From Paludibacteraceae bacterium (GTDB taxonomy: Bacteria > Bacteroidota > Bacteroidia > Bacteroidales > Paludibacteraceae): 64,000 nucleotides of DNA. The notes beneath the pieces were generated by a model, which saw only the letters and a list, made by a program, of their open reading frames with translations, was not told the origin of the DNA and did no database searches. The DNA lies in assembly GCA_017625155.1 (NCBI GenBank), contig JAGALP010000003.1, positions 186,001 to 250,000 of the forward strand. The letters are read 5' to 3'. The position numbers and the translations under genes are program-made. Shown here one piece after another: positions 826 through 56,484 of this stretch; position 1 is the stretch's first letter, and every line of letters begins with the position of its first letter.

Positions 826-1629
826 TCAAACGATTATCTCAAAACTATCCACATCCTTCCAAAGTGGTAACACCTCGCGGAAATGGTGTAGCGCGTCAAT
901 ATCAAAATCAGCAATCTTAGTGCCTTTCTCATTATCAGCGAACGATACAATCGGCTGCAAACGTGTATCATATGCCACCGAATGGCCGTTGTAATTGAGT
1001 TCATTGTCGTCTGTACCCACCATGTTCACGGCAGCAATATAGCACTGGTTCTCCGTAGCACGAGCAGCCACCAAAGCATCCCAATACTGCACACGCACCT
1101 CTGGCCAGTTTGCCACCACCAGAATCACATCATAATCGCTGCCCGACCGATTACGCGCCCAAGCAGGGAAACGCAAATCGTAGCAAACGAGCAATAGGAA
1201 TTTCACACCCTTATACTCAAAGATATGCCTTTTCTGAGCAGGTTGGAAGAACAAATCTTCTCCGCCGTGAGCATACAAATGGCGTTTGTCCTGAATCTCT
1301 ATCTCCGCATGTGGCTTAATCATAAAACCGCGATTGCGGAGCTTCGTTCGGGTATCGGGAATCGGGCATCGGGGATCGGGCAAACAAATAAACGAACTCA
1401 CAATCGCTACACCACTCTTATCCGCTACTGCTTGCAGGCGGCGGATAATCTCGCCGTCCATCGTTTCTGCCAATTCGGGATGATCCGTGCAAAAGCCCGT
1501 AGCAAACATCTCTGGTAATACCGCCACATCGGCTTTGCCAGCCAATGCAGCGATATGTTCTTCCGCCATGCGCAGATTCGTTTCCTTGTCTGCCCAAGCG
1601 ATGGAGTATTGCAGCAGTGCTACTCTCAT
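826..1629 (-). CDS. Nitrilase-superfamily amidohydrolase (omega-amidase type)
   Basis: The 267-residue product has the carbon-nitrogen hydrolase fold with the Glu-Lys-Cys triad visible: Glu40 in LPEMFATGF, Lys115 in DKRHLY, and Cys149 in LLLVCYDLRFP. This motif set fits YafV/Nit2-like omega-amidases, which deaminate alpha-ketoglutaramate or alpha-ketosuccinamate; the exact substrate is an inference. The start lies 11 nt after the floA stop, so the two genes are surely co-transcribed. Residues about 83-94 are encoded by five 7-nt repeat units (1350-1384), probably in a surface loop before the catalytic Lys, because the triad is intact. Confidence 0.88.
   Translation of the reverse strand: MRVALLQYSIAWADKETNLRMAEEHIAALAGKADVAVLPEMFATGFCTDHPELAETMDGEIIRRLQAVADKSGVAIVSSFICLPDPRCPIPDTRTKLRNRGFMIKPHAEIEIQDKRHLYAHGGEDLFFQPAQKRHIFEYKGVKFLLLVCYDLRFPAWARNRSGSDYDVILVVANWPEVRVQYWDALVAARATENQCYIAAVNMVGTDDNELNYNGHSVAYDTRLQPIVSFADNEKGTKIADFDIDALHHFREVLPLWKDVDSFEIIV
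1350..1384. repeat. Heptamer array, 5 units, inside the nitrilase gene
   Basis: The units are gggtatc, gggaatc, gggcatc, ggggatc and gggcaaa, contiguous and exactly 7 nt each. The metX array at 44480-44507 uses closely related units. Confidence 0.85.
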
Positions 1630-1640
1630 TAGGCAATTGG

Positions 1641-2630
1641 CTATTTCTTCTTGGCTGGCTCGCTAGCAGGCTTACCGATAGCCTCGCGCATAGTAGTATC
1701 CGCTTGGATATTTTGCATACGGTAGTAATCCATAATACCCAAATTACCATTGCGGAATGCATCTGCCATGGCTTGTGGTACAAGTGCCTCTGCCTCAATC
1801 ACTTTCGCACGTGCCTCTTGCGCCTTCGCCTTCATCTCTTGCTCATTAGCAATAGCCATAGCACGACGCTCCTCTGCCTTCGCTTGAGCGATGTTCTTGT
1901 CCGCTTGCGCTTGATCCATCTGCAATTGCGCACCGATGTTTTTACCTACATCAATGTCCGCAATATCAATACTCAAAATCTCGAACGCTGTACCTGCGTC
2001 CAGACCTTTGCTGAGTACCAACTTGGAGATGCTATCTGGGTTCTCCAGCACGAGTTTGTGGCTCTCAGCCGAACCGATAGAAGATACGATACCTTCGCCT
2101 ACGCGAGCTAGCACGGTGTCTTCTCCAGCACCACCGACCAATTGCTTGATGTTCGCACGCACGGTCACACGCGCTTTGGCAATCAACTGAATACCGTCTT
2201 TCGCCACGGCGGTCACAGGTGGAGTATCTATCACGCGAGGGTTAACCGACATCTGCACAGCCTCGAACACATCACGACCTGCCAAATCAATAGCAGTCGC
2301 CATTTGGAAGGAGAGTTGCATATTTGCTTTGCTTGCACTCACCAATGCATGCACCACGCGCTCAATATGTCCGCCCGCGAGGAAGTGCGCTTCTAGTCCG
2401 TCGCGCTTCACGTCGGTCAAACCTGCCTTATGTGCTTCAATCAGGCAGTTCACAATACGTGTTGGTGGCACCTTACGGATACGCATCAAGAAGAGTTGCA
2501 CCAACGATACATGTACGCCACTTACTACTGCATTGATCCACAGCATGAAAGGTACATAGTAGAAGAAAATAATCACGAGGATGGCCATTATTGCCACCAG
2601 TACCCATTGTAAAATTCCAAATGTTTCCAT
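1641..2630 (-). CDS. floA: Flotillin-like protein FloA
   Basis: The 329-residue protein has an N-terminal hydrophobic hairpin (about residues 8-35), an SPFH/band-7 region, and an Ala/Glu/Lys-rich coiled-coil region (about 235-290) with repeated KAKAEERR-type sequence, the usual architecture of bacterial FloA (YqfA). FloA scaffolds membrane microdomains on the cytoplasmic face. It follows an NfeD-family gene, its standard partner. The length matches the family. A 7-nt repeat array occupies the short gap between nfeD and floA. Confidence 0.93.
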
Positions 2631-2639
2631 ATTGTTTTA

Positions 2640-2667
2640 GTTTAAAGATTATAGTTTAGAGTTTAAA
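2640..2667. repeat. Heptamer array, 4 units, in the floA leader
   Basis: The units gtttaaa, gattata, gtttaga and gtttaaa run head to tail between nfeD and floA. Confidence 0.75.
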
Positions 2668-2675
2668 GGCTGGAG

Positions 2676-3442: not shown

Positions 3443-4177
3443 TCAATGGGGGCAGAATCGTATATTGAAGAGCTTGTCAATATGCCCGCTATGAATCATC
3501 TCTGGAGTAGGGAGATGGTGCATGGTGGGCGAGTCGATGAGCGCAATCGTGTCGCATAGCGACTGGGCAATATCCAGTTCGTGGGTGGAGAACATGATGC
3601 ACTTGTTGTCCTGATGCGCTAAATCAGCCAGCAAATGGCATAGTTCATATCGGTTAGGCATGTCCAAAAACGAAGTGGGTTCATCGAGCAAGATGATAGG
3701 CGTCTGTTGAGCCAATGCGCGGGCAATCATCACGCGCTGACACTCGCCATCCGACATCTTATCCATGGTGCGGAAGGCATAAGACGCCATGCCTACTTTC
3801 TCAAGCGACTGCATGACAATGGTCTCGTCTTCGGGTTGCATACGACCAATCCAATTGGTGTAGGGTGCCCTGCCAAGAGCTACCACATCCCGGCACGAGA
3901 GATTAGCGATGCGGATACGTTCGGTAGTCACGAAAGCCACCTGTTGCGCAAGTTGCTGAGGAGTAATCTGCTGAATGTCAATGCCGTTGATAAGAACAGA
4001 ACCATGCTTGAGCGGTTCAGAACCAACGATAGCACGCAGCAATGTGGATTTGCCTGTACCATTGCGACCAATGAGCGCAGTCGTTGTACCACAAGTGAAA
4101 GTGGTGGATACATTGTCTAATAGCAGGTGCTGGCTATCGTATCCTAATGCTATATTTCTTAATTCAATCATATTCAA
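3443..4177 (-). CDS. btuD: ABC transporter ATPase for cobalamin uptake
   Basis: The 244-residue protein is the ATPase of a FecE/BtuD-type importer. Walker A is GRNGTGKST (residues 37-45), the signature motif is MSDGECQRV in place of the usual LSGGQ form, and Walker B is IILLDEPTSFLD. It is the last gene of the riboswitch-led btu operon, 33 nt after the permease. The family also serves iron-siderophore uptake; the B12 assignment comes from the cobalamin riboswitch and neighbours. Confidence 0.88.
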   Translation of the reverse strand: MNMIELRNIALGYDSQHLLLDNVSTTFTCGTTTALIGRNGTGKSTLLRAIVGSEPLKHGSVLINGIDIQQITPQQLAQQVAFVTTERIRIANLSCRDVVALGRAPYTNWIGRMQPEDETIVMQSLEKVGMASYAFRTMDKMSDGECQRVMIARALAQQTPIILLDEPTSFLDMPNRYELCHLLADLAHQDNKCIMFSTHELDIAQSLCDTIALIDSPTMHHLPTPEMIHSGHIDKLFNIRFCPH

Positions 4178-4210
4178 TTTTATCTCCCTTCCTTTTAGGG
4201 AGGGGTAGGC

Positions 4211-5215
4211 TTATACTATAGATTTATTGCGAATAACGACCCAAATGACGATTGGGATACCGAGTAGGGCGGTGATGGTGTTGATAGGCAGTGTGAGCCA
4301 TTTGGAGATAATATCGCAGCCGAGCAAGATAACTGCTCCACACAAGGCAGTAGCAGGCAGTAGGATACGATGGTCGGCATTGCAGAAGAGCATGCGAGCA
4401 ATATGCGGAATAGCCAAGCCCACAAAGCCAATAGGACCGCAAAAAGCAGTCACAGTACCCGCCAACAGGGTGGTGGAGAGGAATATCAGATAGCGCGAAC
4501 GGCGGACATTCAATCCCATAGTGCGAGCGTATTGTTCGCCGAGAAGGAGCAAGTTCAGTGGTTTGATTACTGCCACTGAAACGACCAAACCAATCAATAC
4601 CGCAGGCAGTAAGAGCATGAGTTGGCTACTCGTGACATCGCCCAACGAACCCATTGTCCAGATAACAAAGGATTTGAGCGCTTCTTCGTTGCTCAAATAT
4701 TGTAGAATCTGCACTACTGCACTCACGCCCGAAGAAATCATCATACCTAGAATAAGGATGACCATAATGTCTTTGATTCGGATGCTGACGGAAGCTACAA
4801 AAGCGAGAATCAATGCCGCGCCTAACCACGCAGCACCCGCGGTGCCGATAGACGACAAGGTACTATTGGTTGCTACACCCAACAATGGCATACCCAAAAT
4901 AAAGATAGCCACACCTAGACTGGCACCCGAACTGATACCCAACACATAGGGGCCTGCCAATGGGTTGCGGAAGAGGGTCTGCATCTGCAAACCGCTAACC
5001 GATAGTGCTATACCCGCCAATACTGCCACAATGGCTTTGACGAGGCGGATATCGAGCACGATAAGGCGTGTGGAGGCATCCACATCTCCGCCAAATAGTG
5101 CACCCAAAATATCGCGAAGCGGGATATGAACAGAGCCGATGAGCAGGTCAAGTATAAACAGAATGACCAGCAGGAGCGATAAGATTACAAATAATATGGT
5201 AGAATGACGCTGCAT
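4211..5215 (-). CDS. btuC: FecCD-family permease for cobalamin uptake
   Basis: The 334-residue protein is hydrophobic throughout, with about ten predicted membrane helices, and carries the family motif ALSVSGLQMQTLFRNPLAGPY near residues 66-86. It would form the inner-membrane channel with the ATPase encoded downstream, receiving B12 from the binding protein encoded 12 nt upstream. Length and order match BtuC/FecD proteins. Substrate is inferred from the operon's riboswitch. Confidence 0.9.
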   Translation of the reverse strand: MQRHSTILFVILSLLLVILFILDLLIGSVHIPLRDILGALFGGDVDASTRLIVLDIRLVKAIVAVLAGIALSVSGLQMQTLFRNPLAGPYVLGISSGASLGVAIFILGMPLLGVATNSTLSSIGTAGAAWLGAALILAFVASVSIRIKDIMVILILGMMISSGVSAVVQILQYLSNEEALKSFVIWTMGSLGDVTSSQLMLLLPAVLIGLVVSVAVIKPLNLLLLGEQYARTMGLNVRRSRYLIFLSTTLLAGTVTAFCGPIGFVGLAIPHIARMLFCNADHRILLPATALCGAVILLGCDIISKWLTLPINTITALLGIPIVIWVVIRNKSIV

Positions 5216-5227
5216 GTTATAAAAGTT

Positions 5228-6376
5228 TTAAGGGTTGGGGAGTTTTCTATAATAAACGAACTCTTTGTCTGATTCTAATTCAGGATGAAAAATCTTGATT
5301 AAATCGCGCAAAATGACATCTGGATGCACTACGCCCGACTCCCAATAGTCGTTGCCTCCACCAGTGACTCTGCGTTTGTCGCAATTGTACACTTCGCCCC
5401 GTTGCACGCAAGGCATATGGGCGAACTTAGGGAACTGGCGACACAAATCGTCCACAGAATTGACATTGCCCACATTAATCCATACATCGGCTTGGGTAGT
5501 CAGTAATGCCGCCTCCTCCATATCGATTGGCAAAGAGTGGTTAGAGGTGTTTTTCTTATAAATATAATCGCCTCCTGCATCTGCAATCAGTCGTGCTACA
5601 TAGCTGGTGGCGGAAGCCATAAACCACGAGTCGGCGTATGGTGTGTTGATCATTACTTTGGGAGTGGGAGTTTGGGCTGAAGCGGCTAAAGACTTAAGAT
5701 GCTCGTAGCGTTTTGGCACTTCAGAAAAATAAGTGATGCCGTGCTTTCGGCAACCAACAATCTCAGCAATGGCAATAAGCCATTCGGTCTTTCCTAAAGG
5801 ATCTTCTTCTACATACTCGCCAATATACATATACGGAATACCTAATTCATCGAGTTTAGACTCCATGACACATGCACCCGTTACACCAAAGAGAAGTACA
5901 ATATCAGGTTGTTGCGCCACGAGAAGTTCGAAATTCATATTACCGTCATACCCCACATCGGGGATAGTATGTTGATTAGCCACAATATAGGGGTTGGTGA
6001 TGAAATCCTTGCCCGACACGCCCACTACGCTCTCTATAGCTCCTATGGCATCAAGCATGGCGATATGGCTGGATGACATGCACACCACTCGCTTAGCATC
6101 GCCTTGCAGCACTTGACCACGGAAACCATCGGGCGCTTTCTCGCCTCCACGAGCGATAAAGAGCATTGTCTCTACATCGTTGGCACTTTGCCACGGATTA
6201 GTCACTCGGATGATGGTGCTCTGCTTGCCCTCTGCACCGACAATGCGAAAACCTGTGGCGTATGTGGGGGTGTAAACCGCCATGTTGTAGTCTTCTATAT
6301 TGCTAGATGAAGTACACGAACATGTGCCCCAAAGGATGGCGCAGAGAATCAAAAGATGTGTTAATTGCTTCATCAT
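5228..6376 (-). CDS. btuF: Cobalamin-binding periplasmic lipoprotein
   Basis: The 382-residue protein begins with a lipoprotein signal (hydrophobic run, then Cys near residue 21) and has the two-lobed substrate-binding fold of class III ABC importers: VVCMSSSHIAMLDAIGA near the N-lobe and QQPDIVLLFG before the linker helix. It would pass B12 from the outer-membrane receptor to BtuCD. Its ATG overlaps the preceding stop codon by one base (TAATG), suggesting translational coupling with the upstream surface lipoprotein. Confidence 0.85.
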   Translation of the reverse strand: MMKQLTHLLILCAILWGTCSCTSSSNIEDYNMAVYTPTYATGFRIVGAEGKQSTIIRVTNPWQSANDVETMLFIARGGEKAPDGFRGQVLQGDAKRVVCMSSSHIAMLDAIGAIESVVGVSGKDFITNPYIVANQHTIPDVGYDGNMNFELLVAQQPDIVLLFGVTGACVMESKLDELGIPYMYIGEYVEEDPLGKTEWLIAIAEIVGCRKHGITYFSEVPKRYEHLKSLAASAQTPTPKVMINTPYADSWFMASATSYVARLIADAGGDYIYKKNTSNHSLPIDMEEAALLTTQADVWINVGNVNSVDDLCRQFPKFAHMPCVQRGEVYNCDKRRVTGGGNDYWESGVVHPDVILRDLIKIFHPELESDKEFVYYRKLPNP

Positions 6377-7614
6377 TAGTATTCTTCAATATTCAAATCG
6401 CGCGCATGAGAAACCTCGGTGGAGATCTCGCCTATCCATCCGCATTGTTGTTGTACGCCCGTATAGACACGCACGAAGTCGGCACAGGGCAACTTGGCTG
6501 GTTTGCCGTCGGCAGTAACCGCCCAATCTATATCAAACGAACAGCGGCTGACACTGTCGTTGGGATGATTATCGGCATAACCAAAGTCGTATGGCTGGAG
6601 TACCCACATATTGCCTTTGCCATTTTTGTCTACAGCGTTATTGGGCAAACGAGTACCCGAGAAAGTGAGCGTAGAGTCGGTGCGCCAAAGCGGGAAGTAG
6701 TCTTGCGTATGGAAAGTGTTCTTATACATATACCCCTGCTCGCCTTGATTATTCTTCCATAGTATATATGTGGTGTCAGAGAGCGAGTTTTTTGTGTCTG
6801 CTTGTGGTGTATGCTCGGCAGGTGTACGATGGTAGGTAAGAGCATATTGGTGGATTGTAGCAGGATTGGTATATTCGCTGCCTGCGAGTTCATAGAATGG
6901 GTCATCGGGCAGGCCGTTCTGGTTAATATCTATACTGACCATCACAATACCTGGTTCGCTACTTCCGTTGCGGTTGCCTGCTGAAGCATAGAACGCGTTG
7001 CCTTCTACGGTGAAATCGGGCAAATTAGGAGCATTCACTACAGAGTGGTCGAAAGCAAAAGTTACATATCCGCCCCAACCACCGAGCGAGATTAGACTGC
7101 GATTGGTGCCTGCGATGGCATCTTCTGCCTTTCGAAGCATGGCTTGATAAGTGTCGCCATCTTCGTATTCTGGCATGGTGTTGATAAACTGTCCTGGTGC
7201 AGGATTATACTCTAACACCTTAGAAATATACGGTGAATAGGCAACTTCTTCGTCGAAGACGACAATGGTAGTATTGTGTAGTATTGTGTAGGATGGTGTA
7301 GGATTGTTGATTTCCAATTGTAAATTATACGTGCCTGCCTCTGCTTGACAGAAAATTAGGTCGCGTTCGGTACTAATTACCTTATCCCCCATTCGCCATG
7401 CATAGTGCTCACCCTCATACTCAGGATGAAGGATAAGCGTGCGCATACGCTCAATAGTATAGGTGTCATCTATACCAAGGCCGACCATCGGTGTTTCGGG
7501 TTGCTCGCAACTAACGATAGATAAAGCACATATGAGCAGGGATATCACCCGTGCGCACAGACCACTTGCGTTTGCCTTCGCGTGAATAGCAATGTAATTG
7601 ACCACTTGAGACAT
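6376..7614 (-). CDS. PKD-like surface lipoprotein of the B12 uptake operon
   Basis: The mature part carries a PKD-like N-terminal region (YAWRMGDKVISTE, then EAGTYNLQLEI) and a larger domain with FVTFAFDHS-type and GIVMVSIDINQNGLPDDPFYEL motifs that I associate with surface proteins beside btuG in Bacteroidales; it may correspond to the B12-binding BtuH class, which I cannot confirm. A lipoprotein signal ends at the Cys of ALSIVSC. The start is uncertain: the ATG at 7614 gives a complete signal with basic residues but overlaps btuG by 104 nt; a GTG at 7548 would shorten the overlap to 38 nt but leave no basic residue. Four 10-nt repeats lie inside the gene. Confidence 0.75.
   Translation of the reverse strand: MSQVVNYIAIHAKANASGLCARVISLLICALSIVSCEQPETPMVGLGIDDTYTIERMRTLILHPEYEGEHYAWRMGDKVISTERDLIFCQAEAGTYNLQLEINNPTPSYTILHNTTIVVFDEEVAYSPYISKVLEYNPAPGQFINTMPEYEDGDTYQAMLRKAEDAIAGTNRSLISLGGWGGYVTFAFDHSVVNAPNLPDFTVEGNAFYASAGNRNGSSEPGIVMVSIDINQNGLPDDPFYELAGSEYTNPATIHQYALTYHRTPAEHTPQADTKNSLSDTTYILWKNNQGEQGYMYKNTFHTQDYFPLWRTDSTLTFSGTRLPNNAVDKNGKGNMWVLQPYDFGYADNHPNDSVSRCSFDIDWAVTADGKPAKLPCADFVRVYTGVQQQCGWIGEISTEVSHARDLNIEEY
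7268..7307. repeat. Decamer array, 4 units, inside the PKD-like lipoprotein gene
   Basis: The units gtagtattgt (twice), gtaggatggt and gtaggattgt are contiguous and encode the PTPSYTILHNTTI stretch between the PKD-like and main domains. Confidence 0.85.
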
Positions 7615-8731
7615 AGTTTTTAGCATCTGTAATATATATATCGCCATTATAAGGATTGACTTGTATGCCGTATGGAATCTTGATGTTTTTCTCAGTTTTA
7701 TCGGTGATAAAAGAGCGGATATTGGATGTCGGATATTGGATATTGAGGACACCATACGTGATAGTGTTGGACATTGTCTGCTCGTTCCAATGCGAACCGT
7801 AGTAGTACATGCTATCGCCAAAAATCACCATTTCGCTTACTGCTGGAGCATTGGCTATGGGCAATTGGCTATTGGTTGCGGGCGATAAACATATTAGTTG
7901 TGGTTGCACCTCTTTGTGGTCACCGCGGGAAGTAATCCAAAGGTGGTTGTACTGGTCTTTGCGCAAGCGATGGGGATTGAGGCATACGGGTATTTTTTGT
8001 ACTTGACGGAAATCTTTGAGGGAAATGATTGACATGGTAGAATCGTAGTCTGGTGCCCTATAACCACCAGAATTTACCACATAAATATGCTCATTGTTAA
8101 CGATCAATTCCTCAGGTTGATAACCCACAGTCACTTTGCGAGTGATTTCCAATGTAGCAGTATCCACTTCGAAGACTGCCCCTAATTGGGCGTTGGGGTC
8201 GATACTAATAGGACCTACATACGAACTGACATATGCTTTCCCCTCGTGAAAACAGATGTATCGACAATTAGGTATATCCACTTGGCCGATACGGCGACAG
8301 GTACGGGCATCCATCACTTCTACTTTGTGCGAGCAGTTGATGACTGCATAAAGTCGGTTGCCATATATCTGAATATCATTGCCTACATCGCCTAATTCCT
8401 TTATCACATTCGGATTGCGCTCGCCATAGATATTGCGAATATAACAACCGTTGCAGAAATCAAGGTAATCAATAGTAGCTTTATTGCTACCCATATTCCC
8501 CTCGTTGAGTAGGTACATACCAATGGGTTCGTTAGGTGCAAAACTGCTCAATTCTCTCGGTTCCATCGGCAAGACCTCATACTCAGATGGGTAGGTAATT
8601 TCATCGCTACGACAGGAGGTCAGCAGCAAAACAGCAGATGCTATCATGCATAGCAACAAACTACGCTTGATACTTTTATCAAGCATATACGCGTTGGCGT
8701 ACCTACAATCATATGGAAAACTACTTGTCAT
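7511..8731 (-). CDS. btuG: BtuG-like B12-capturing surface lipoprotein (beta-propeller)
   Basis: The 406-residue protein has a lipoprotein signal (LLLCMIASAVLLLTSC) and repeated four-strand blades (for example VGNDIQIYGNRLYAVIN and VGYQPEELIVNNEHIYVVN), as in BtuG, the seven-bladed propeller that captures B12 and hands it to BtuB. It is the first gene after a cobalamin riboswitch. I keep the ATG at 8731 because the sequence just before it matches the sequence just before the btuB start, although the ATG at 8686 gives a shorter, more typical signal peptide. Two heptamer arrays lie inside (7717-7744 and 7852-7886), probably in loops between blades. Confidence 0.8.
   Translation of the reverse strand: MTSSFPYDCRYANAYMLDKSIKRSLLLCMIASAVLLLTSCRSDEITYPSEYEVLPMEPRELSSFAPNEPIGMYLLNEGNMGSNKATIDYLDFCNGCYIRNIYGERNPNVIKELGDVGNDIQIYGNRLYAVINCSHKVEVMDARTCRRIGQVDIPNCRYICFHEGKAYVSSYVGPISIDPNAQLGAVFEVDTATLEITRKVTVGYQPEELIVNNEHIYVVNSGGYRAPDYDSTMSIISLKDFRQVQKIPVCLNPHRLRKDQYNHLWITSRGDHKEVQPQLICLSPATNSQLPIANAPAVSEMVIFGDSMYYYGSHWNEQTMSNTITYGVLNIQYPTSNIRSFITDKTEKNIKIPYGIQVNPYNGDIYITDAKNYVSSGQLHCYSREGKRKWSVRTGDIPAHMCFIYR
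7717..7744. repeat. Heptamer array, 4 units, inside btuG-like gene
   Basis: The units are ggatatt, ggatgtc, ggatatt and ggatatt, in frame, encoding part of LNIQYPTSNIRSF. Confidence 0.85.
7852..7886. repeat. Heptamer array, 5 units, inside btuG-like gene
   Basis: The units tggctat, gggcaat, tggctat, tggttgc and gggcgat encode the LSPATNSQLPIANA stretch. Confidence 0.85.
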
Positions 8732-8763
8732 GTCTAAGCCCTATTCCTCGAGAGCGTTCAACT

Positions 8764-8806
8764 TCGGGGTCCCCGACGAGCCTCGTGGGCGAGTGGGGAT
8801 GCCCTT
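8764..8806. repeat. Insertion block at the riboswitch 3' side
   Basis: The block cggggtccccgacgagcc...gggcgagtgggg is absent from the btuB riboswitch and occurs again at 8971-9006; a degraded relative lies near 53725-53765. Confidence 0.7.
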
Positions 8807-8860
8807 ATGCATGCAGCAGGTCTTCTGACTTATTGCTCGTTTGCTTAGCCTTCCCAGCTT

Positions 8861-8888
8861 GTCAGTTGATAGTTGACAATTGACAGTT
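8861..8888. repeat. Heptamer array, 4 units, inside the riboswitch
   Basis: The units gtcagtt, gatagtt, gacaatt and gacagtt extend a peripheral arm of the aptamer. The same units occur in topA, thrA, rnr and ybeY. Confidence 0.85.
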
Positions 8889-8970
8889 AGCCAGTGACTT
8901 AGATACGAAGCAAACGATTTTGCAAATCACAGCAGCGGGTCTGTGCAGGAATCTCACCTGCTTCCCTTAA

Positions 8971-9006
8971 GCGGGGTCCCCGACGAGCCATGTGGGCGAG
9001 TGGGGT
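8971..9006. repeat. Insertion block at the riboswitch 5' side
   Basis: A second copy of the cggggtccccgacgagcc block lies just upstream of the aptamer core. Confidence 0.7.
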
Positions 9007-9027
9007 GCTCTTAACTGAATGCGGGTG

Positions 9028-9059
9028 CAAAGGTAATCATTTTTTCTTTATTATCCAAA
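9028..9059 (-). promoter_or_regulatory. Promoter of the btuG-F-C-D operon
   Basis: TACCTTTG (9035-9028) is the -7 element and TTTG (9059-9056) lies 20 nt upstream. Transcription would begin about 10 nt before the riboswitch. Confidence 0.75.
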
Positions 9060-9503
9060 TTTATGGTAATATTTTTGGATTGTATCTTCATTTAATACTC
9101 ATAAGTTACCTGCAAGTTTCGGGACCACCATAGGAGATCTCTAGCACATCTGTGGGCTTTCTGTGGCTTTTGTGATGTGCCTCTATAATAATGCTGCAAA
9201 AATCTTCGGCGCGGAAGGGGTTTTGCGCCGAAGATTGGAGAATGCGGAGAGTGAAATGGTACATACAACACACGGAAAGTGTAGTATTTACAAGGCTTCC
9301 CGCGTGAGTGTATTTTTTTGAAAAAAGTTTTCGCGCGCCGAAGATTGTGCCGAAAGTTCCTACTAAAATCATATCTGTTCAAATGTTAAAAATGTATAAA
9401 ATGTATAAAAATGCTGCTATATAGTTATAGGTTTTGCATAGAATTTGTGTGAGAATATAAAGATTTATTAAATATAACTACATGATTTATTAAACATAAT
9501 TGT
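9060..9503. other. Intergenic region with hairpin repeat, no convincing gene
   Basis: This 444-nt stretch contains a 126-nt repeat copy with a strong hairpin, a partial second copy of the hairpin's arm at 9333-9356, and an AT-rich segment before the GH13 gene. A run of 'aatgtataaaatgtataaaaatg' type repeats lies near 9384-9410. Minus-strand open frames here show no protein-like features. Confidence 0.6.
9112..9237. repeat. Left direct-repeat copy flanking the GH13 gene, with hairpin
   Basis: Segments gcaagtttcgggacc, gtgggctttctgtggcttt and gcctctataataatg match the copy at 11244-11480 in the same orientation. A 12-bp inverted repeat, aatcttcggcgc against gcgccgaagatt (9201-9236), ends the block. 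Confidence 0.75.
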
Positions 9504-11222
9504 ATGAAGAAACAATTCATTCTATTTAGTGTATTGGTCTGTAACGCAATATCGTTGTTCGCCTCAAATAACACGGCAGACACATTTGATTGGCGTGGCG
9601 CTTCGGTATATTTTGTCATTACTGATCGGTTTTGCAATGGAGATACCACCAATGATATCAACTATGGGCGCATCGTTGATTATGGTACAGAACAATTGAA
9701 TGCTGCCACCTTTCATGGCGGAGATTTCAAAGGTATGTTGCAAAAAGCCAAAGAGGGGTATTTCACCGATTTAGGAGTGGATGTTGTATGGATGACTGAT
9801 GTCTATGAACAAATCCATGGTTGGATGTCAGGCAGTGGCTCAATCAACGATTTTCCGCACTATGGCTATCATGGCTATTATCCACTGGATTACACCCAAA
9901 TAGATAAGAACTATGGAACAGTAGAGGAGTTTCGTGCATTGGTAGATACACTGCATGCACAAGGAATACGCGTGATGCTCGGAGCTAACTTGAATAATCC
10001 AGGTTATCCGACTCTATTAGATGCCATACAGTATGGTTTTGCAGAAGTGGGATTGACCCCGCAACAAGCAGCAGAACACATACGTGAGTGGAGTTTTGAT
10101 GATTTCTTTGCGCAGCGATTGACATGGTCTGGTTGGTATGACCGTCCATGGATTCGTATGCCAGATGAGCATTGGGACGAGAATAATCCGTTAGAGGCAA
10201 CGGTGTTTGGTATGCCTGACTTCAAAGAGGAAAGTACGGAGATGGTTCGTATCCCTGCGTTTCTCAAACGTAAATGGAAAGCAGAGGGCAAAGCGAATGA
10301 TGCGTGGGTGAATCCTTCTGCACGAGTGCTACGCAAAGACCGAAAAGCCACTGTACAAAAATATTTAGTAGATTGGATTGCCTCGTGGGTTCGCGAATTT
10401 GGTATTGATGGTTTCCGTTGTGATATTGTTGAGAATGTTCATATAGATAGTTGGAAAGCTCTGCATATCGCCTGCAACGAGGCATTGCGAGAGTGGCGTT
10501 TGGTTCATCCCAAAGATGCCGCAGCCCAATGGAAAGAGGATTTTTATATGACGGGCGACTTCGATTGCGCATCAATAGATTATAAACCCGAATATGCAAG
10601 TGCGGGATTTGGTAGTATGGTCAATTTCTATTTCCCTAAGCACGGCGATTTGGATGGGATAGTATATACTTGGCAAGCGTATGCCGATAGCCTGAATATG
10701 TACACGAATTGGCACCCATTTAGCTATCTCAACAACTCGTATCATCGCGATGCAGACATGTCTAATATGATTGATTGCGCTACCACGCTATTGTTGGCTC
10801 CAGGTGCAGTGCAAGTGTTTTATGGAGATGAGACTGGTAGAAAATTGAGTGATGCGCGCTTCAATGTAGATAGTGATCAAGCCTTTCGTTCAGATATGGA
10901 TTGGAGCGATATTAATGAAAATCAGTTGCAACATTTTCAGCGTTTAGGGCAGATACGCAAAACCTATCCCGTGATTGGCACAGGCAAGCAACATACGATA
11001 GATGTGCATACTTGTGCACGATACAACGATAATGATACAGTGGTTATTCGTGTTCTACCGATAGCAGGACAAGCGATTTGCCTTGACAACACTTTTGCGG
11101 AAGGCGCAGAGGTCGTAGAACTCTACACTGGACAAAAGACGAAGGTGCACAATGGCAAAGTTGTTTTCCCTTATTTTGCAAACAATATTGCGATTATCAA
11201 ATTAGTTTGCTCAAGACTTTAG
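9504..11222 (+). CDS. MalS-like GH13 alpha-amylase homologue with degenerate catalytic motifs
   Basis: The 572-residue protein has a signal peptide (to about residue 20) and aligns by eye with E. coli MalS: DFPHYGYHGYYPLDY (116-130), IDGFRCD (301-307), LLLLAPGAVQVFYGDE (429-442). The GH13 catalytic regions are altered. Region I DVVMNH is MLGANLNN (158-165). The nucleophile Asp307 is kept, but the following Lys-His is Glu-Asn. The acid/base Glu of GEVW-type region III is Asp352 in TGDFD. Region IV SSHD is NNSYHRD (410-416). It is therefore likely an inactive or altered amylase, perhaps glycan-binding. It stands alone between two B12 units and is flanked by related repeats. No clear promoter was found. 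Confidence 0.85.
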   Translation: MKKQFILFSVLVCNAISLFASNNTADTFDWRGASVYFVITDRFCNGDTTNDINYGRIVDYGTEQLNAATFHGGDFKGMLQKAKEGYFTDLGVDVVWMTDVYEQIHGWMSGSGSINDFPHYGYHGYYPLDYTQIDKNYGTVEEFRALVDTLHAQGIRVMLGANLNNPGYPTLLDAIQYGFAEVGLTPQQAAEHIREWSFDDFFAQRLTWSGWYDRPWIRMPDEHWDENNPLEATVFGMPDFKEESTEMVRIPAFLKRKWKAEGKANDAWVNPSARVLRKDRKATVQKYLVDWIASWVREFGIDGFRCDIVENVHIDSWKALHIACNEALREWRLVHPKDAAAQWKEDFYMTGDFDCASIDYKPEYASAGFGSMVNFYFPKHGDLDGIVYTWQAYADSLNMYTNWHPFSYLNNSYHRDADMSNMIDCATTLLLAPGAVQVFYGDETGRKLSDARFNVDSDQAFRSDMDWSDINENQLQHFQRLGQIRKTYPVIGTGKQHTIDVHTCARYNDNDTVVIRVLPIAGQAICLDNTFAEGAEVVELYTGQKTKVHNGKVVFPYFANNIAIIKLVCSRL

Positions 11223-11243
11223 CGAGAGTCCCACAAGTTCCCC

Positions 11244-11480
11244 GCAGGTTTCGGGACCTAAAGGAGTGTGACGGAACGCACTCCGAGCGCAGCGCCCGAA
11301 GAGTCCCCACTCTGAGGAATCAGCGCAAGCATAGAACAGAACAAGCATATCTATAGGAGATTTGTGGGCTTTCGGTGGCTTTCTGTTTCTTGTTTGCACG
11401 TTTCACTTCCGATTTTTGATGCGCCTCTATAATAATGGTGTAAAAATCTTCGGCGTTGAAGAGGTTTTGCGTCGAAGATT
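11244..11480. repeat. Right direct-repeat copy flanking the GH13 gene, with hairpin
   Basis: It matches the left copy in blocks (gcaggtttcgggacc, gtgggctttcggtggcttt, gcctctataataatg) but has about 90 nt of extra sequence after the first block. It ends with an inverted repeat aatcttcggcg against cgtcgaagatt (11445-11480). Confidence 0.7.
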
Positions 11481-11493
11481 ATGTCGAAAGTTA

Positions 11494-11535
11494 GGCTTAT
11501 GTAACATTTTGGGTACCTAAAATGTTACATAAGCC
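11494..11535. terminator. Perfect 17-bp hairpin between convergent genes
   Basis: The arms are ggcttatgtaacatttt and its exact complement aaaatgttacataagcc with an 8-nt loop. A run of six T follows about 10 nt later on the plus strand, so it may end transcription of the GH13 gene; a mobile-element end is an alternative. Confidence 0.55.
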
Positions 11536-11651
11536 AAGAAAACGCCTTTTTTAGGAAAAAAGTACCCGAATACTATTCGGGAGTAATGAACAAAGAAAAG
11601 TGAGAAAGCATACAATGAGCGGTCGCGCCTATCAAGTGGCAAACAACTGAT

Positions 11652-13847: not shown

Positions 13848-13850
13848 GTC

Positions 13851-14030
13851 TTAAGCCCTATACCACGAGAGCGTTCAACGAATGCATGTAGCAGGTCTTC
13901 TGACTTATCGCTCCTTTTGTTCGGCCTTCCCACCTTAGAGGCAGTGACCTAAGAGATAGTGAACATCGGATTGCGAATCACAGCAGCGGGTCTGTGCAAA
14001 AATCTCACTTGCTTCCCTAAATCTAAATGC
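13851..14030 (-). ncRNA. Cobalamin riboswitch controlling btuB
   Basis: The minus strand shows gggaagcaagtgagattttt, cagacccgctgctgtga, ggtcactgcc, gggaaggc and aagtcagaagacctgc, then the shared 3' segment gaacgctctcg..atagggctta before the btuB ATG. It is the compact version, without the three blocks found in the 8740-9020 riboswitch. Confidence 0.93.
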
Positions 14031-14034
14031 GGTG

Positions 14035-14065
14035 CAAAGGTAGTGTAAAAAAATGATATACGCAA
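14035..14065 (-). promoter_or_regulatory. btuB promoter
   Basis: TACCTTTG (14042-14035) and TTG (14065-14063) are 20 nt apart on the minus strand. Confidence 0.75.
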
Positions 14066-14190: not shown

Positions 14191-14221
14191 TTGCACCATT
14201 CAAAATTTTGTTGTACCTTTG
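14191..14221 (+). promoter_or_regulatory. topA promoter
   Basis: TTG at 14191-14193 and TACCTTTG at 14214-14221 are 20 nt apart. The transcript would start about 30 nt before the topA ATG, which excludes the longer reading frame beginning at 14208. Confidence 0.8.
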
Positions 14222-14261
14222 CCGCCGTTTTGCAAAAAAGAACAAACTACACCTTATATAT

Positions 14262-42758: not shown

Positions 42759-42813
42759 TTAGGTTATTCATAGGTGATTCTTAGGTTATTTATAGGTTAT
42801 TCATAGGTGATTC
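42759..42813. repeat. 11-nt array, 5 units
   Basis: Units ttaggttattc, ataggtgattc, ttaggttattt, ataggttattc and ataggtgattc lie between divergent promoters. It is the inverse of the array at 16716-16748. Apart from this the 42664-42890 gap shows nothing. Confidence 0.88.
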
Positions 42814-42890
42814 AGCACACATCACAATTAGATAAAAACGATTTATCTGAAAAAATATTGTTTTTAATTCCGCAACTTTTCTTCGAAAAA

Positions 42891-50006: not shown

Positions 50007-52169
50007 TTAATCCTCGTCCTTTTGGGTAGCTTCGTACTCTTTGATGAGTTTCTCTTGTACATCAGCAGGTACGAGTTCGTAGCTCTTGAACTTCATAGTG
50101 AAGGTAGCACGACCACCTGTGAGCGAAGACAATGTAGTAGAATAAGAAGCCATCTCTTTCAAAGGAACCAAAGCCTTCAAGGTGGTGAAGTTCTTCTCAG
50201 TTTCCATACCGAGCACCATACCACGGCGACCGTTGATGTCAGACATCACATCACCCATGATCTCACTTGGAACGAATACCTCCACCTCGTAGATAGGTTC
50301 GAGCAACTTAGGATTAGCATTGCGGAATGCCTCTGCAAAAGCGTTACGTCCAGCGAGACGGAAAGAGATTTCGTTGGAATCAACTGGGTGCATCTTACCG
50401 TCGTAGATGATTACGCGTACGTCGCGAGCGTAAGAACCAGTCAAAGGACCTTGCTCGATACGGTCCATCAAACCTTTGAGGATTGCAGGGATGAAGCGTG
50501 CATCGATAGCACCACCCACGATAGAGTTGATGAGCACGAGTTTGCCACCCCAATCGAGAGGAATCTCTTGGGTGTCACGTACTGTGATACGATATTCTTG
50601 ATTACCAAACTTGTAAACTTCCTTCACTGGTTCGCCCTCTACGTAAGGCTCTACGATGAGGTGTACCTCACCAAATTGACCAGAACCACCTGATTGCTTC
50701 TTGTGGCGGTAGTCAGCGCGAGCAGACTTGGTGATAGTCTCGCGATAAGGAATCTTTGGCTCCTCGAATTGAACCATCATCTTATCGTTGTTCTCCAGAC
50801 GCCATTTGAGTGTGCGGAGGTGGAACTCACCTTGACCAGAAACGATGACTTGCTTGAGCTCTTTGGATTGTTCTACAACCCAAGTAGCATCCTCTTCGTG
50901 CATACGAGTGAGGAGTGCAGAGAGTTTCTCTGAATCGCTCTCGCTAACTGGCTTGATAGCACGGCGGTATTTAGGATCTGGGTAAGAGATAGCAGGATAT
51001 TGATTCTCGCAGTCTTTTGCGTTGAGGGTGTTGCCAGTACGTGTATCTTTGAGTTTCACAGTAGCAGCGATGTCACCAGCAACCACTTCGTCCACAGGCA
51101 CGCGGATGCTACCTGCTACCGAATAGAGTTGGCTGATGCGCTCTTTGGTGCCACGGTCCACGTTGAGCACGTCATCGCCTGGGCGGAGAGTACCTTGCAT
51201 TACCTTGAAATAGTTGACATCGCCAATATGTGGCTCAACAGAAGTCTTGAAGATGAATGCTGAAGCAGGAGCTGCAGGGTCTGGAGCAACCTCTTTAGCG
51301 TCCACGGTGAGTGGTTTAGGAGCATCAGCTACAGATGGAGTCATCTCGCCAAGGAAGCCCATGAGGCGGCGGATACCCATATCCTTCAGACCGCTGGTGC
51401 AGATAACTGGATACATGCTACCTTCTGCGAATACGGTTTGAAGACCTTGCATGAGTTCTTCATCAGAGAGGGTACCTTGCTCGAAGTACTTGTCCATGAT
51501 GGTCTCGTCGGACTCAGCAGCCCACTCAAGGAGTTGTGCGCGAATTTCCTCAACAGTAGCTTTCTCGCTTTCTGGGATGTCTTTTGCCTCAGGTGCGCCA
51601 CCTTCTGCTTTCCAAACGAGCATTTTGCCTTGGAGCACGTCGATAGCAGCGTTGAAGTCCTTACCTGCGTTGACAGGGTATTGGAAGAGGGTACACTTGT
51701 TGCCAAATGCCTCTTTGAGTTCGTTGAAAGTACGTTCGAAGTCTGCGTTCTCGTGGTCGCACTTGTTGATAACGAAAGCGATAGGTTTTTTCGCTTTCTC
51801 AGCGCGGCGGAAATTGTTTTGTGTGCCCACTTCTACGCCGCCATTCGCGGTGAGGGTGATGATAGCGGTGTCCGCTACGTGAAGTGCTGTGATGGCACCA
51901 CCGCAGAAGTCGTCGGAACCTGGGCAGTCGATGATATTGAGTTTTTTGTTATTGAACTCGATGTTACAAACTGTGGAAAAAACGGAGTAGCCGTATTCCT
52001 TTTCAACTGGGAAATAGTCGCAGACGGTAGATTGTGTTTCTACAGTACCACGACGTTTGATGACCCCGCACTCGAAGAGCATGGATTCCATAAGGGTAGT
52101 TTTACCCGAGCCACTGCCACCCATGAGGGCAATGTTCTTAATCTCGTTAGCTTGATAAACTTTAGCCAT
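50007..52169 (-). CDS. fusA2: Elongation factor G paralogue (EF-G2 type) lacking the catalytic histidine
   Basis: The 720-residue protein has all five EF-G domains, but its GTPase centre departs from EF-G. The P-loop is GGSGSGKTT in place of AHIDAGKTT, the DTPGH motif is DCPGSDD with Ser85 at the histidine position, and the switch I RGITI motif is YGYSV. NKCD (135-138) is intact. From memory, Bacteroides EF-G2 is a paralogue that supports translation without GTP hydrolysis in the gut; the residues here agree with that. A canonical fusA is expected elsewhere. A heptamer array lies in its leader. Confidence 0.88.
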   Translation of the reverse strand: MAKVYQANEIKNIALMGGSGSGKTTLMESMLFECGVIKRRGTVETQSTVCDYFPVEKEYGYSVFSTVCNIEFNNKKLNIIDCPGSDDFCGGAITALHVADTAIITLTANGGVEVGTQNNFRRAEKAKKPIAFVINKCDHENADFERTFNELKEAFGNKCTLFQYPVNAGKDFNAAIDVLQGKMLVWKAEGGAPEAKDIPESEKATVEEIRAQLLEWAAESDETIMDKYFEQGTLSDEELMQGLQTVFAEGSMYPVICTSGLKDMGIRRLMGFLGEMTPSVADAPKPLTVDAKEVAPDPAAPASAFIFKTSVEPHIGDVNYFKVMQGTLRPGDDVLNVDRGTKERISQLYSVAGSIRVPVDEVVAGDIAATVKLKDTRTGNTLNAKDCENQYPAISYPDPKYRRAIKPVSESDSEKLSALLTRMHEEDATWVVEQSKELKQVIVSGQGEFHLRTLKWRLENNDKMMVQFEEPKIPYRETITKSARADYRHKKQSGGSGQFGEVHLIVEPYVEGEPVKEVYKFGNQEYRITVRDTQEIPLDWGGKLVLINSIVGGAIDARFIPAILKGLMDRIEQGPLTGSYARDVRVIIYDGKMHPVDSNEISFRLAGRNAFAEAFRNANPKLLEPIYEVEVFVPSEIMGDVMSDINGRRGMVLGMETEKNFTTLKALVPLKEMASYSTTLSSLTGGRATFTMKFKSYELVPADVQEKLIKEYEATQKDED

Positions 52170-52203: not shown

Positions 52204-52238
52204 AGATATTGGTTATCGGTTATAGGATAACGGATATC
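52204..52238. repeat. Heptamer array, 5 units, in the fusA2 leader
   Basis: Units agatatt, ggttatc, ggttata, ggataac and ggatatc lie between the promoter and the ATG. Confidence 0.8.
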
Positions 52239-52243
52239 GGTTG

Positions 52244-53214: not shown

Positions 53215-53535
53215 ACTGCCTACTCTTTGTCGGATTTTCGGCACACTCCGTTGTTAATTATTTGATTTGTGTTTGTTCTGTGGATAAATGATAGACATAC
53301 AAAAAGCGTGAACTTTCGTTCGCTTCATTTGATTACTTGAGGTCTTCGACTACCTTTATCTATCAAAATCTACACAAAAGCCCACGCCGTAGCGTGAGCG
53401 CATAGGCTTGTGCTTGATAGATAAATTACATTGAAGTTGTCGAAGTTTCAAGTAATCAAGTTTGGCTTATAACGCTATATTAAATATGTCTTGGCACCGA
53501 CGCTTCGATGCCTTTATTGGCGGATTTATCCTTTC
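53215..53535 (-). ncRNA. Unassigned highly structured RNA (free RNA or leader)
   Basis: A promoter at 53542-53572 reads into about 320 nt with no open frame. Hairpins: gcgga-tccgc near 53517-53537 and ggcatcg/cggtgcc near 53492-53511. The core is a 133-nt imperfect inverted repeat (53328-53460) with paired blocks 53329-53340/53448-53459 (12 bp), 53344-53350/53439-53445 (7 bp), 53355-53366/53414-53425 (12 bp), 53373-53382/53405-53412 (with a bulge) and the tip 53383-53387/53392-53396 (loop cgta). It has none of the marks of tmRNA, RNase P RNA or SRP RNA. A 6S-like RNA, a cis-regulatory leader of the gene at 52670-53200, or a mobile-element end are possible. Confidence 0.6.
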
Positions 53536-53852: not shown

Positions 53853-54284
53853 TTAGAGGTGGAGGTGGCGGAGGGCGGCTTCCTCTTTGGCGGTCATCTG
53901 GGCTTTGGTTTCGGGGGTTTTGTCGGCTTGGCCTGTGAGGTGGAGTAGGCCGTGGATGATGATACGGTGCAACTCGTGGATGAAAGGTGCGCCTACCTGT
54001 TCGGCATTGGTTGCAACGGTGTCGAGAGATATGTAAATATCGCCATTCACGCGTGTGCGCGTGGTATAATCAAAGGTGATGACGTCGGTATAGTAGTCGT
54101 GCTGGAGAAACTCTTGATTGACGGCGAGAATCTTCTCATCATCGCAGAAGATATAGTTGAGGTCGCCTACGGAGTAGCCGTATTGAGCTGCGGTACTCTT
54201 GATCCATTGCTCGACTTTGCGGAAGTCGACAGTTGACAATTGACAGTTGGCAGTTGAGATGTTGTCGAAGTGGAAGGTGATCAT
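53853..54284 (-). CDS. ybeY: Endoribonuclease YbeY (16S rRNA 3'-end maturation)
   Basis: The 143-residue product has the zinc-binding motif HGLLHLTGQADKT and FCDDEKILAVNQEFLQHDYYTDVITF, as in YbeY. The third ligand position is the DKT form I know from Bacteroidetes. The start at 54284 (MITFHFDN) is preferred over 54308 because family proteins begin at this strand. Residues about 10-19 come from a four-unit heptamer array, encoding STANCQLSTVD near the N-terminus. Confidence 0.9.
   Translation of the reverse strand: MITFHFDNISTANCQLSTVDFRKVEQWIKSTAAQYGYSVGDLNYIFCDDEKILAVNQEFLQHDYYTDVITFDYTTRTRVNGDIYISLDTVATNAEQVGAPFIHELHRIIIHGLLHLTGQADKTPETKAQMTAKEEAALRHLHL
54228..54255. repeat. Heptamer array, 4 units, inside ybeY
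   Basis: Units gacagtt, gacaatt, gacagtt and ggcagtt. Confidence 0.88.
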
Positions 54285-54329
54285 ATTCGTGTTTAGTGAA
54301 CGCGGCAAAGCCGCTACTGTTTAGTGTGG

Positions 54330-55562: not shown

Positions 55563-55570
55563 ATTGGGTG

Positions 55571-55618
55571 CAAAGGTACGGAAAAATTTGCATATATCAA
55601 AAAAAAATAGTACTTTTG
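55571..55618. promoter_or_regulatory. Overlapping divergent promoters sharing one -33 dyad
   Basis: Plus strand: TTTG (55587-55590) and TACTTTTG (55611-55618), 20 nt apart, for the methyltransferase gene. Minus strand: TTTG (55601-55598) and TACCTTTG (55578-55571), 19 nt apart, for the SpmA-SpmB fusion gene. The -33 elements are the two arms of TTTGCATATATCAAA, so only one polymerase can bind at a time. Confidence 0.85.
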
Positions 55619-55626
55619 CACGCCTT

Positions 55627-56484
55627 ATGAAGAAAAATGTGTATTTATATCGCGTGTTATCGTGGTTGAAGCACCGACTGACTGCCCGAAATACGGGTGG
55701 GCATGGTGTGCATTCGCCCTATTTGTTTGAGTGGGTGAGAATGGTAATGAGCGATAAGAATGCCTATTACGCGTGGCAGGCGATAGAGGATTTGAGGAGT
55801 GAGTTGCTGCATGATACGCGTGAGGTGGAGTTTGTGGATTTTGGTAGCGGGGGAAGGAATGGTAAAGAGGCGAAGAAGCGGCAAGGCTACAAGACAAAGA
55901 AGCAAGTGTGTGATATAGCCAATGGAAGTTTGGCGAAGAAGAAATATGCGCAGTTGTTGGCGCGATTGGTGGGCTGGCTGGGAGAAAACGGAGAAAGGAA
56001 TGGTGAGAGAGGGGGATTGACTGTTGTGGAGCTGGGAACAAGTTTGGGTATCACTACGGCATATATGGCTGCGATGGATAGCAGGAATAGGATTGTGAGT
56101 TATGAGGGGTGTCCCGCAGTGGCAGAAATAGCGATGGCGAATTGGGATAAGTTGGGTTTGGAGAATGTGGAATGTCGCGTGGGAGAGTTGACTATTGATA
56201 GTTTACAGGGGGCAGTTGACAGTTTGCAGAAGATAGATGTGGCATTTATTGATGCGAATCATACTTATGAGGCGACATTGACCTATTTTAACGCGCTCGC
56301 GTCGCGTGTGCATGGTAAAAGTGTGATTGTACTGGATGATATTCATTACAATGAGGAAATGGAGCGCGCATGGAAGGCAATTTGTGCGGATGAACGAGTG
56401 ACGAGCACGATTGATTTGTATCAAATGGGGATGGTGTTTTTTGACCCGCATTATTGGCATAGAAACTACAAGATGAACATATGA
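55627..56484 (+). CDS. SAM-dependent methyltransferase, class I (O-methyltransferase-like)
   Basis: The 285-residue protein has the SAM-binding motif VVELGTSLGITTAYMAA (about 150-166), an acidic post-motif (RIVSYEGCP) and KIDVAFIDANHTYEATLTYF with VIVLDDIHYNEEMERAWK, as in the Methyltransf_24 group of O-methyltransferases. The substrate is unknown. The start at 55627 lies just after the promoter; the longer frame from 55552 is excluded by it. A six-unit heptamer array encodes ELTIDSLQGAVDSLQKI just before the DAN motif. It overlaps the next gene (ATGA). Confidence 0.82.
   Translation: MKKNVYLYRVLSWLKHRLTARNTGGHGVHSPYLFEWVRMVMSDKNAYYAWQAIEDLRSELLHDTREVEFVDFGSGGRNGKEAKKRQGYKTKKQVCDIANGSLAKKKYAQLLARLVGWLGENGERNGERGGLTVVELGTSLGITTAYMAAMDSRNRIVSYEGCPAVAEIAMANWDKLGLENVECRVGELTIDSLQGAVDSLQKIDVAFIDANHTYEATLTYFNALASRVHGKSVIVLDDIHYNEEMERAWKAICADERVTSTIDLYQMGMVFFDPHYWHRNYKMNI
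56187..56228. repeat. Heptamer array, 6 units, inside the methyltransferase gene
   Basis: Units gttgact, attgata, gtttaca, gggggca, gttgaca and gtttgca total 42 nt, a multiple of three. Confidence 0.85.

Follow-up and report, generated by a model that had tools for sequence, protein, structure and literature searches.

The window analysed here is a 64,000-nt stretch (G000:C16:186001-250000) of a 1.61-Mb metagenome-assembled genome (MAG) from a Paludibacteraceae bacterium, hereafter G000, that is 62% complete. It carries degenerate tandem arrays of 7-nt units within and beside its genes, some of them joined to small perfect hairpins. An earlier note had listed twelve places with such arrays. 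These were rescored with our own period scan (match +1, mismatch -1.5), which was also applied to the whole window and to a wider genome sample. The best period was 7 or 14 at all 12 places, and 11 of the 12 scored between 8.5 and 18.5 at period 7, confirming that the arrays are real. For four of the 11, the scored segment is narrower than the array limits given below (nitrilase 1348-1380, riboswitch 8864-8888, thrA 46814-46831, ybeY 54224-54256). The remaining one, a highly degenerate GTTGACA-like stretch in a Methyltransf_24 gene (56187-56235, plus strand), scored 5.0, which is chance level in G000. Tandem Repeats Finder returned 11 period-7 rows overall and recovered 10 of the 12 places, missing those at 7852 and 56187. 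At a threshold of 8 the window contains 13 segments, compared to 0-3 in ten shuffles, so the weakest arrays (thrA and 7852) are individually not beyond doubt.

The gene names given in the earlier note were confirmed above curated cut-offs for TopA, RNase R, ThrA, YbeY, EF-G2 and FloA. MetX and the nitrilase match their own families below the cut-offs (MetX also matches solved homoserine acetyltransferases), while the gene described as btuG-like is a DUF5074 gene near a cobalamin riboswitch. The nearest named relatives by MetX are ruminant-gut MAGs, mostly labelled Paludibacteraceae, and sites were compared one by one with the relatives G014, G039, G054, G058, G061, G062, G063, G064 and G065.

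The nitrilase-family gene (826-1629, minus) contains an ATCGGGN array at 1348-1382 (minus) that encodes LPDPRCPIPDTR; the same family is present in G062 with 39 additional nt, and a different repeat family occupies the site in G063 and G065. The metX gene (44207-45223) carries a GGGAATC-type array at 44478-44507 (plus), and the corresponding site holds GTTTAGGA octamers in G058, CTTACAC units in G054, AAGAATT and TTCAAAA units in G014, and GGAATCC units in G065. In the MetX alignment (eleven rows, two from one MAG), this single site holds four or more kinds of array, in segments of 16-30 residues. In topA (14208-16577), a TGTCAAY array at 15555-15584 (plus) encodes NCQLSTVNCQ. It is common to G061, G014 and G058 (degraded in the latter two), is absent from G039, G054, G062 and G063, and lies in an ordinary variable segment that shows no gap in a 20-sequence alignment. 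The GTTGACA array of rnr (32267-33928; array 32915-32951, plus) has one unit with TGGACA in place of the stop-giving TTGACA; the array is 21 nt longer in G058 and absent from G061 (-3 nt). A TTGTCAA array at 46804-46831 (plus) occupies a variable-length site of thrA (45220-47640) and encodes SLSTIHCQLST. Near the N-terminus of ybeY (53853-54308, minus), whose start is probably the ATG near 54284 rather than the listed TTG, a TGTCAAY array at 54224-54257 (minus) gains 21 nt in G058 and is missing from G061, G054 and G014. The DUF5074 gene (7511-8731, minus) contains a GGATATT array at 7717-7745 (minus), with 21 nt more in G062, G063 and G065 and equal-length non-array sequence in G061 and G064, as well as a weak TTGGCTA-type array at 7850-7875 (minus; score 9.0). 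The G058 ortholog of the methyltransferase gene has a clear array at the site of the chance-level stretch (+21 nt).

Further arrays lie outside coding sequence. The cobalamin riboswitch at 8798-9007 (minus) contains a GTTGACA array (8859-8888, minus) as a 27-nt expansion of a terminal loop that has 4 nt in the model; G061 and G063 have one unit (7 nt) fewer, and the array is absent from G062, G065 and G014. The period scan also places an AGTTTAA array (2639-2668) directly upstream of floA (1641-2630, minus), and a TATCGGT array (52207-52240) lies upstream of fusA2 (50007-52169, minus); no strand is assigned to either.

The relatives indicate how these arrays change in length. Among 16 same-family comparisons at coding sites, 10 show no change, five show +21 nt and one +39 nt; the five +21 changes span three sites (three at 7717, one each in rnr and ybeY). 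All same-family length changes in genes are multiples of 3, and the idea that 21-nt steps preserve the frame is borne out by five of the six changes. Unit-number changes between relatives were likewise confirmed, since the riboswitch varies in 7-nt steps (-7 nt in 2/2 same-family comparisons, possibly one event) and genes by +21 nt. In contrast, the claim that arrays as a rule add peptide loops was not supported: topA shows no length change, and the differences in metX and nitrilase are mostly 0 to 6 nt (exceptions +36 and +39). Similarly, the expectation of clean insertions fails for topA and is partly upheld for ybeY and the methyltransferase.

Entire arrays also differ between species at fixed sites. 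At 6 of 21 coding array sites with a comparable relative (periods 7, 8 and 14), at least one relative carries a different family, whereas any array at all was found at 0 of 221 random coding controls (Fisher 2e-7; 3e-6 if 5/21 is used, because the site at window 12531 probably retains the same modular family), although part of this excess arises because arrays sit in variable sequence and the controls are unmatched. For want of a relative with both flanks, 13 of the 34 coding arrays and 179 of the 400 control sites dropped out of the test, as did loci unassigned to a named relative. The 53 site-by-relative cells comprise 19 with the same family, 11 with another family and 23 with no array. Length differences are multiples of three in 50 of these 53, and control sites differ in length in 3.9% of 257 cells. 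That the source genome is an incomplete MAG might suggest an assembly or binning artefact, but same-site, in-frame arrays recur in MAGs from other animals, making such an artefact scarcely credible.

To place these arrays in a genomic context, we scanned 464 kb of G000 (the window and twenty 20-kb stretches) with ten Markov shuffles as controls. The enrichment check proposed in the earlier note came out positive in this sample, with 43 period-7 segments at a score of at least 12 and none in the shuffles; period-11 segments numbered 23. When arrays were assigned to their best period, 37 fell to period 7 and 22 to period 11, making 7 the commonest tandem period in G000. Period 11 is slightly ahead of period 7 in G014 (21 vs 19) and G061 (47 vs 44).

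The arrays do not favour genes, contrary to the proposed preference for essential or housekeeping genes. Although 88% of the G000 sequence is coding, genes contain 17 of the 37 period-7 arrays, 7 more are at gene edges and the other 13 are intergenic; arrays are hence depleted in genes, albeit far from absent. At threshold 10, families that are stop-free on at least one strand lie in genes in 21/32 (G000), 24/40 (G061) and 12/17 (G014) cases, and families with stops on both strands in 0/17, 2/23 and 2/14, respectively, a comparison that is partly circular because stops exclude an array from any open reading frame (ORF). Period-11 arrays, although translatable, are in genes in only 1/24 (G000), 2/46 (G061) and 1/23 (G014) cases. 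Therefore, 7-mers and 11-mers behave as different kinds, and the period-11 arrays probably form a class apart, with a role of their own. Within the window, period-11 arrays (e.g. TACGTAACATA) occur at 16717-16750, 28868-28906, 35036-35073 and 42757-42814.

It is conceivable that functional peptides or regulatory DNA motifs maintain the arrays, as sites are used repeatedly and arrays are found within a riboswitch as well as in the leaders of floA and fusA2. However, the eleven MetX rows contain unrelated units in segments of differing length, units are read from either strand, and several arrays are missing in relatives, which renders this explanation very improbable. Since a single site may hold different unit families in different species, and either strand is read, the encoded peptides themselves appear unlikely to matter for function. 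Alignments suggest that the arrays may lie in protein loops, which would tolerate them.

In two of three genomes, array units are drawn from a restricted vocabulary. The 37 arrays of G000 contain 29 identical unit pairs, compared to a mean of 1.08 and a maximum of 7 in 1000 permutations, and the 44 arrays of G061 contain 20 (1.04 expected). Nine of 18 G014 unit classes are also found in G000 (0.65 expected), orthologous sites included. The 57 units of the genus fit a profile of approximately R-R-N-A-R-Y-Y, scoring 167.6 compared to 149.3 ± 4.2 (maximum 160.3) in 40 permuted sets. Six Parabacteroides distasonis unit classes fit this profile better than 2000 of 2000 permutations, and five units from other Bacteroidota are borderline (7% of permutations as good). 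A shared unit grammar beyond the order was considered and rejected, as three Nostoc units and five published units proved unexceptional (40% and 19% of permutations as good, respectively).

Variation within arrays is furthermore concentrated on particular unit phases. The concentration of mismatches on unit phases was 497 in G000 compared to 401 ± 13 and was reached in 0 of 500 permutations (45 of 64 arrays were long enough); in G014 it was 231 compared to 193 ± 10 (26 of 45 arrays). Of seven families tested, all but ATCGGGA (chi-square p 0.57) show phase-uneven polymorphism (p 0.018 to 0.00002), and in the CTTGGTT family phases 2 and 6 are polymorphic in 9/9 loci and phase 7 in 0/9. The wobble tests are not fully independent, because G000 and G061 orthologs were both counted and copying of variant units within an array adds to the signal.

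These observations bear on the simplest explanation, in which ordinary polymerase slippage favouring 7 nt and random point mutation produce the arrays, with chance and selection accounting for the rest. Unit-number steps of 7, 14 and 21 nt agree with it, and two reports describe heptamers as dominant in many bacteria and mention a polymerase-contact explanation (PMC4679880, PMC4692102). The excess of identical unit pairs in G000 (29 vs 1.1), the phase-uneven polymorphism, the hairpin modules with constant borders described below, and the complete lack of period-7 arrays in eleven loci (191 kb) of other Bacteroidales all argue against it. We hence disfavour this explanation and consider it improbable.

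Elsewhere, the scan found 6 period-7 arrays in 464 kb of other Bacteroidota loci, 8 in 160 kb of P. distasonis (1 in its shuffle) and 4 in a 200-kb Nostoc plasmid sample. A search of 72,556 plasmid records with the GTTGACA array (E up to 10) matched 10, the best at E 0.003 and several weakly: Parabacteroides (4), Nostoc (2), Planktothrix (2), Crinalium (1) and Mycetohabitans (1). The five cyanobacterial records, albeit with several matches weak, uphold the likeness to cyanobacterial heptamer repeats that had been proposed. The reversed GTTGACA pattern was dropped as a control, since its backward reading is a rotation of GTTGACA itself. A four-unit ATCGGGN array was present in 3 of 395 phylum genomes, G000 among them, and the reversed control in two. 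In two plasmid-labelled P. distasonis records (L241, NZ_OY725748.1; L243, NZ_OY725752.1), which may be chromosomal pieces, genes for NhaC-family, MutS-family and M48 peptidase proteins adjoin heptamer arrays. The Crinalium match (L240, NC_019737.1 22344-22378) overlaps an annotated gene for a restriction subunit S at its start.

Some arrays are joined to hairpins that vary in sequence between constant borders, in the form TA-hairpin-GTYC. Such elements with perfect hairpins number 31 in G000, 61 in G061 and 53 in G014, compared to 3-12 when the borders are altered and 0-5 in Markov copies, although some of those counted must be chance occurrences at the control rate; P. distasonis has 4 (0-5 in controls). 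With stems of at least 4 bp, 103 distinct hairpins were obtained (nested stems counted), with loops of 3-5 nt. Composite stems are 4-6 bp and mostly begin with G, and the foot tag is GTAG in CTAAAC-type composites and ATAG in most others. A period-7 array is located no more than 25 nt from the hairpin in 10/31 (G000), 18/61 (G061) and 16/54 (G014) cases, while 0.65, 1.15 and 1.05, respectively, are expected. Eight of the 61 genus genomes contain the exact composite pattern (G014 70, G000 25, G039 11, G025 7, G054 3, G058 2, G035 1, G008 1), and none of the 61 the reversed control. Among 296 genomes sampled across the phylum, which included two further members of the order and represented the family by this genus alone, the pattern is restricted to G000; the reversed control gave two single matches elsewhere.

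Within the window, a composite CACTAAACAGTA-(GCGGC TTT GCCGC)-GTTCACTAAACA (54302-54314, minus) lies directly upstream of the likely ybeY ATG, and G061 has the identical hairpin with one extra CTAAACA unit. Two adjoining pattern matches at 368-418 (minus) lie in a DHH-family gene (3-800, minus), one with a perfect hairpin at 402-412 and the other imperfect; by eye, G061 and G063 have octamer-like sequence there. A further match, CCAATAG...CGTCCAATA, is located at 28965-28993 (plus; G000:C16:214965-214993). In a TonB-plug gene (11652-13847, minus), CATTAAC heptamers alternate with mini-hairpins GCGAAGC, GGCGAAGCC and GTGAAAC at 12531-12580 (minus; modules read by eye). As d(GCGAAGC) is a stable mini-hairpin, an excess of this word was considered, but it does not rank with the 15 hairpin words of 7 nt listed as most over-represented. 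The same gene contains a period-8/16 array (GGCGATGA) at 13711-13777 (minus).

Nine composite sites were compared with G061, after three chance-like elements had been set aside by eye. The hairpin was identical at three of them, carried point changes in a single arm at one, and was different or absent at five; flanks were 91-99% identical. Gradual compensatory evolution of the hairpins was not seen at these nine sites, and was rejected. At locus L124:2268, where the flanks are 95% identical, a CTAAAC composite containing a single hairpin corresponds in G061 to a CCTATAA composite whose two hairpins are different. Four 20-kb loci with composites or arrays gave no Rfam matches.

The constant borders around a variable perfect hairpin, together with the restricted vocabulary, fixed-phase wobble and narrow distribution, could reflect a dedicated enzyme, either a transposase or recombinase acting on the TA-hairpin-GTYC module or a templated polymerase that adds degenerate heptamers as a footprint. 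The Y1 transposase family PF01797 has no match in G000 or G014 (98% complete), yet G014 is richest in the composite pattern (70); the search covered neither other enzyme families nor G061, G054 and G058. No target duplication was noticed, although no search was aimed at these. We therefore regard a dedicated enzyme as possible but unlikely. Within the genus, 16 of 41 genomes have some PF01797 match, 12 above the cut-off, and its presence does not track the composite counts. Mobilisation of the REP/RAYT type was rejected, given the lack of a Y1 transposase match in G000 and G014.

Taken together, we favour a model in which the repeats spread by slippage and template switching and selection retains those copies that are translatable, frame-neutral and placed in variable segments, and assign it a probability of roughly 0.55. 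The lineage would possess a specific low-complexity repeat set, comprising degenerate heptamers, some octamers and composites of heptamers with TA-hairpin-GTYC modules, and arrays would arise and turn over fast at many genomic places. Replication-associated strand slippage, which the 7-nt steps fit, would change unit number. Template switching fits both the perfect variable hairpins and the whole-array differences: on the same strand it would generate the hairpins, and between loci it would carry a unit family over to other sites and exchange entire arrays. Selection would then purge most copies. Purifying selection on arrays that arise blind to genes is suggested by the bias towards translatable, frame-keeping copies in variable segments, and genic survivors would mostly be stop-free on the sense strand and frame-keeping. 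The presence of different families in one segment across species would follow, because it is mostly such arrays in variable segments that survive, and the encoded peptides are probably tolerated filler. The earlier note had allowed for an unknown copying mechanism, a suggestion strengthened by the vocabulary, fixed-phase wobble, site-swapping and hairpin modules.

Several observations weigh against this slippage and template-switching model. No donor-recipient copy was caught, the longest ectopic composite match being 73 nt and the best listed 78-100% identical. The 19 arrays of G014 share just one identical unit pair (0.22 expected), and non-coding same-family length changes include -1, -9, -13, +56 and +7 in addition to -7, hence are not all multiples of 7. 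The stop-codon test suffers from the circularity mentioned, stop-bearing families were called in genes in G061 (2/23) and G014 (2/14), and the sense consensus contains a stop in 2/21, 5/26 and 3/14 coding arrays of G000, G061 and G014, respectively. Placement in loops rests on alignments. The swap controls were random coding sites unmatched for variability, and swapping could in part be allele recombination, as G061 and G064 share one allele of the btuG-like gene. Finally, the vocabulary, fixed-phase wobble and constant TA/GTYC borders are not predicted by plain slippage and point to a sequence-specific agent; they form the chief grounds for still considering a dedicated one. A stronger version of this idea, a clade-specific and sequence-aware writing process that deposits ~RRNARYY repeats and TA/GTYC-bounded hairpins, overwriting permissive stretches and re-writing sites between species, appears decidedly improbable.

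Heptamer repeats, including intragenic ones, are already known in other phyla. The combination seen here, of several wobbling families that differ at fixed coding sites and are joined to variable hairpins, did not appear in the literature searched. Heptameric simple sequence repeats are described with the unit GGGNATC in Xanthomonas and GGGGAYT in Nostoc (PMC4692102), and these resemble those of G000 as dispersed degenerate 7-nt arrays with heterogeneous units, some intragenic; the nitrilase unit of the window is GGGNATC, the Xanthomonas unit. The repeats followed there are of one G-rich type, mostly intergenic (68% in Nostoc; 11% and 7% overlap a gene in two Xanthomonas genomes), commonly with four units, and discussed as G-quadruplexes (PMC4692102). 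The G000 clade has many families, many of them genic, with different families per site and hairpin modules. The account of TAACTGA direct repeats in Beggiatoaceae, cyanobacteria and five Bacteroidetes gives mostly 2-6 units, indels mostly in 7-nt steps (two Cyanothece strains) and a patchy distribution across phyla, all similar to our arrays (PMC4679880). According to the same paper, those repeats differ in having one unit, located near start codons in the studied genome, and heptamers one base off rarely form arrays (PMC4679880), while variant units are the rule in arrays of the G000 clade. The TAACTGA unit is missing from the listed unit classes, its canonical form AACTGAT not being one of the 60 commonest. 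Tandem heptamers are also known as the short tandemly repeated repetitive (STRR) heptanucleotides of cyanobacteria (Calothrix), which our arrays appear to resemble. The published heptameric repeats and our arrays share over-representation relative to shuffles and 7-nt unit-number steps (-7 and +7 outside genes, +21 in genes, and some others).

The hairpins resemble GTAG- and CGTC-tagged REPs, which PMC3733652 describes as high-copy small hairpins, some in genes, including Rickettsia palindromic elements; CGTC REPs lack a dedicated transposase and include Gramella forsetii (Bacteroidota) (PMC3733652). Composites likewise show TAG before and CGTC after the hairpin. In CGTC REPs, the stem is 8-9 bp long and starts with A and T, and the end without the tag carries a CCA tail (PMC3733652), whereas composites have 3-7-bp stems starting with G, many sequences, and a position beside heptamer arrays. 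Composites hence fall outside the CGTC REP definition (8-9-bp stem, CCA tail), and the Y1 transposase expected for the GTAG/RAYT class gave no match in G000 or G014. The literature searched contained no report of site-swapping, hairpin-heptamer composites, or heptamer arrays in Paludibacteraceae.

The dominance of heptamers among bacterial tandem repeats is an old and little-studied question, for which this lineage offers arrays that differ between close species at fixed sites, along with internal controls: 21-nt steps in proteins versus 7-nt steps in a riboswitch, translatable versus untranslatable families, and period-11 arrays that lie nearly always outside genes. Should template switching or an enzyme turn out to generate the composites, the clade would allow the process to be read from genomes. 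It also serves as a warning for such genomes, in which the variable segments of a housekeeping protein may represent newly written repeat DNA and not adapted sequence.

The region surrounding the riboswitch array (3443-14042) is a probable cobalamin uptake region. It contains riboswitches at 8798-9007 and 13873-14042 (both minus) together with DUF5074, PKD-domain, ABC ATPase and TonB-plug genes, the ABC ATPase being closest to corrinoid transporters, below the cut-off. The listed ORFs 6376-7821 and 7511-8731 (minus) overlap but are separate genes in relatives, and the former is probably lengthened by a spurious TTG start. A DUF805b RNA motif match was located at 53217-53251 (minus).

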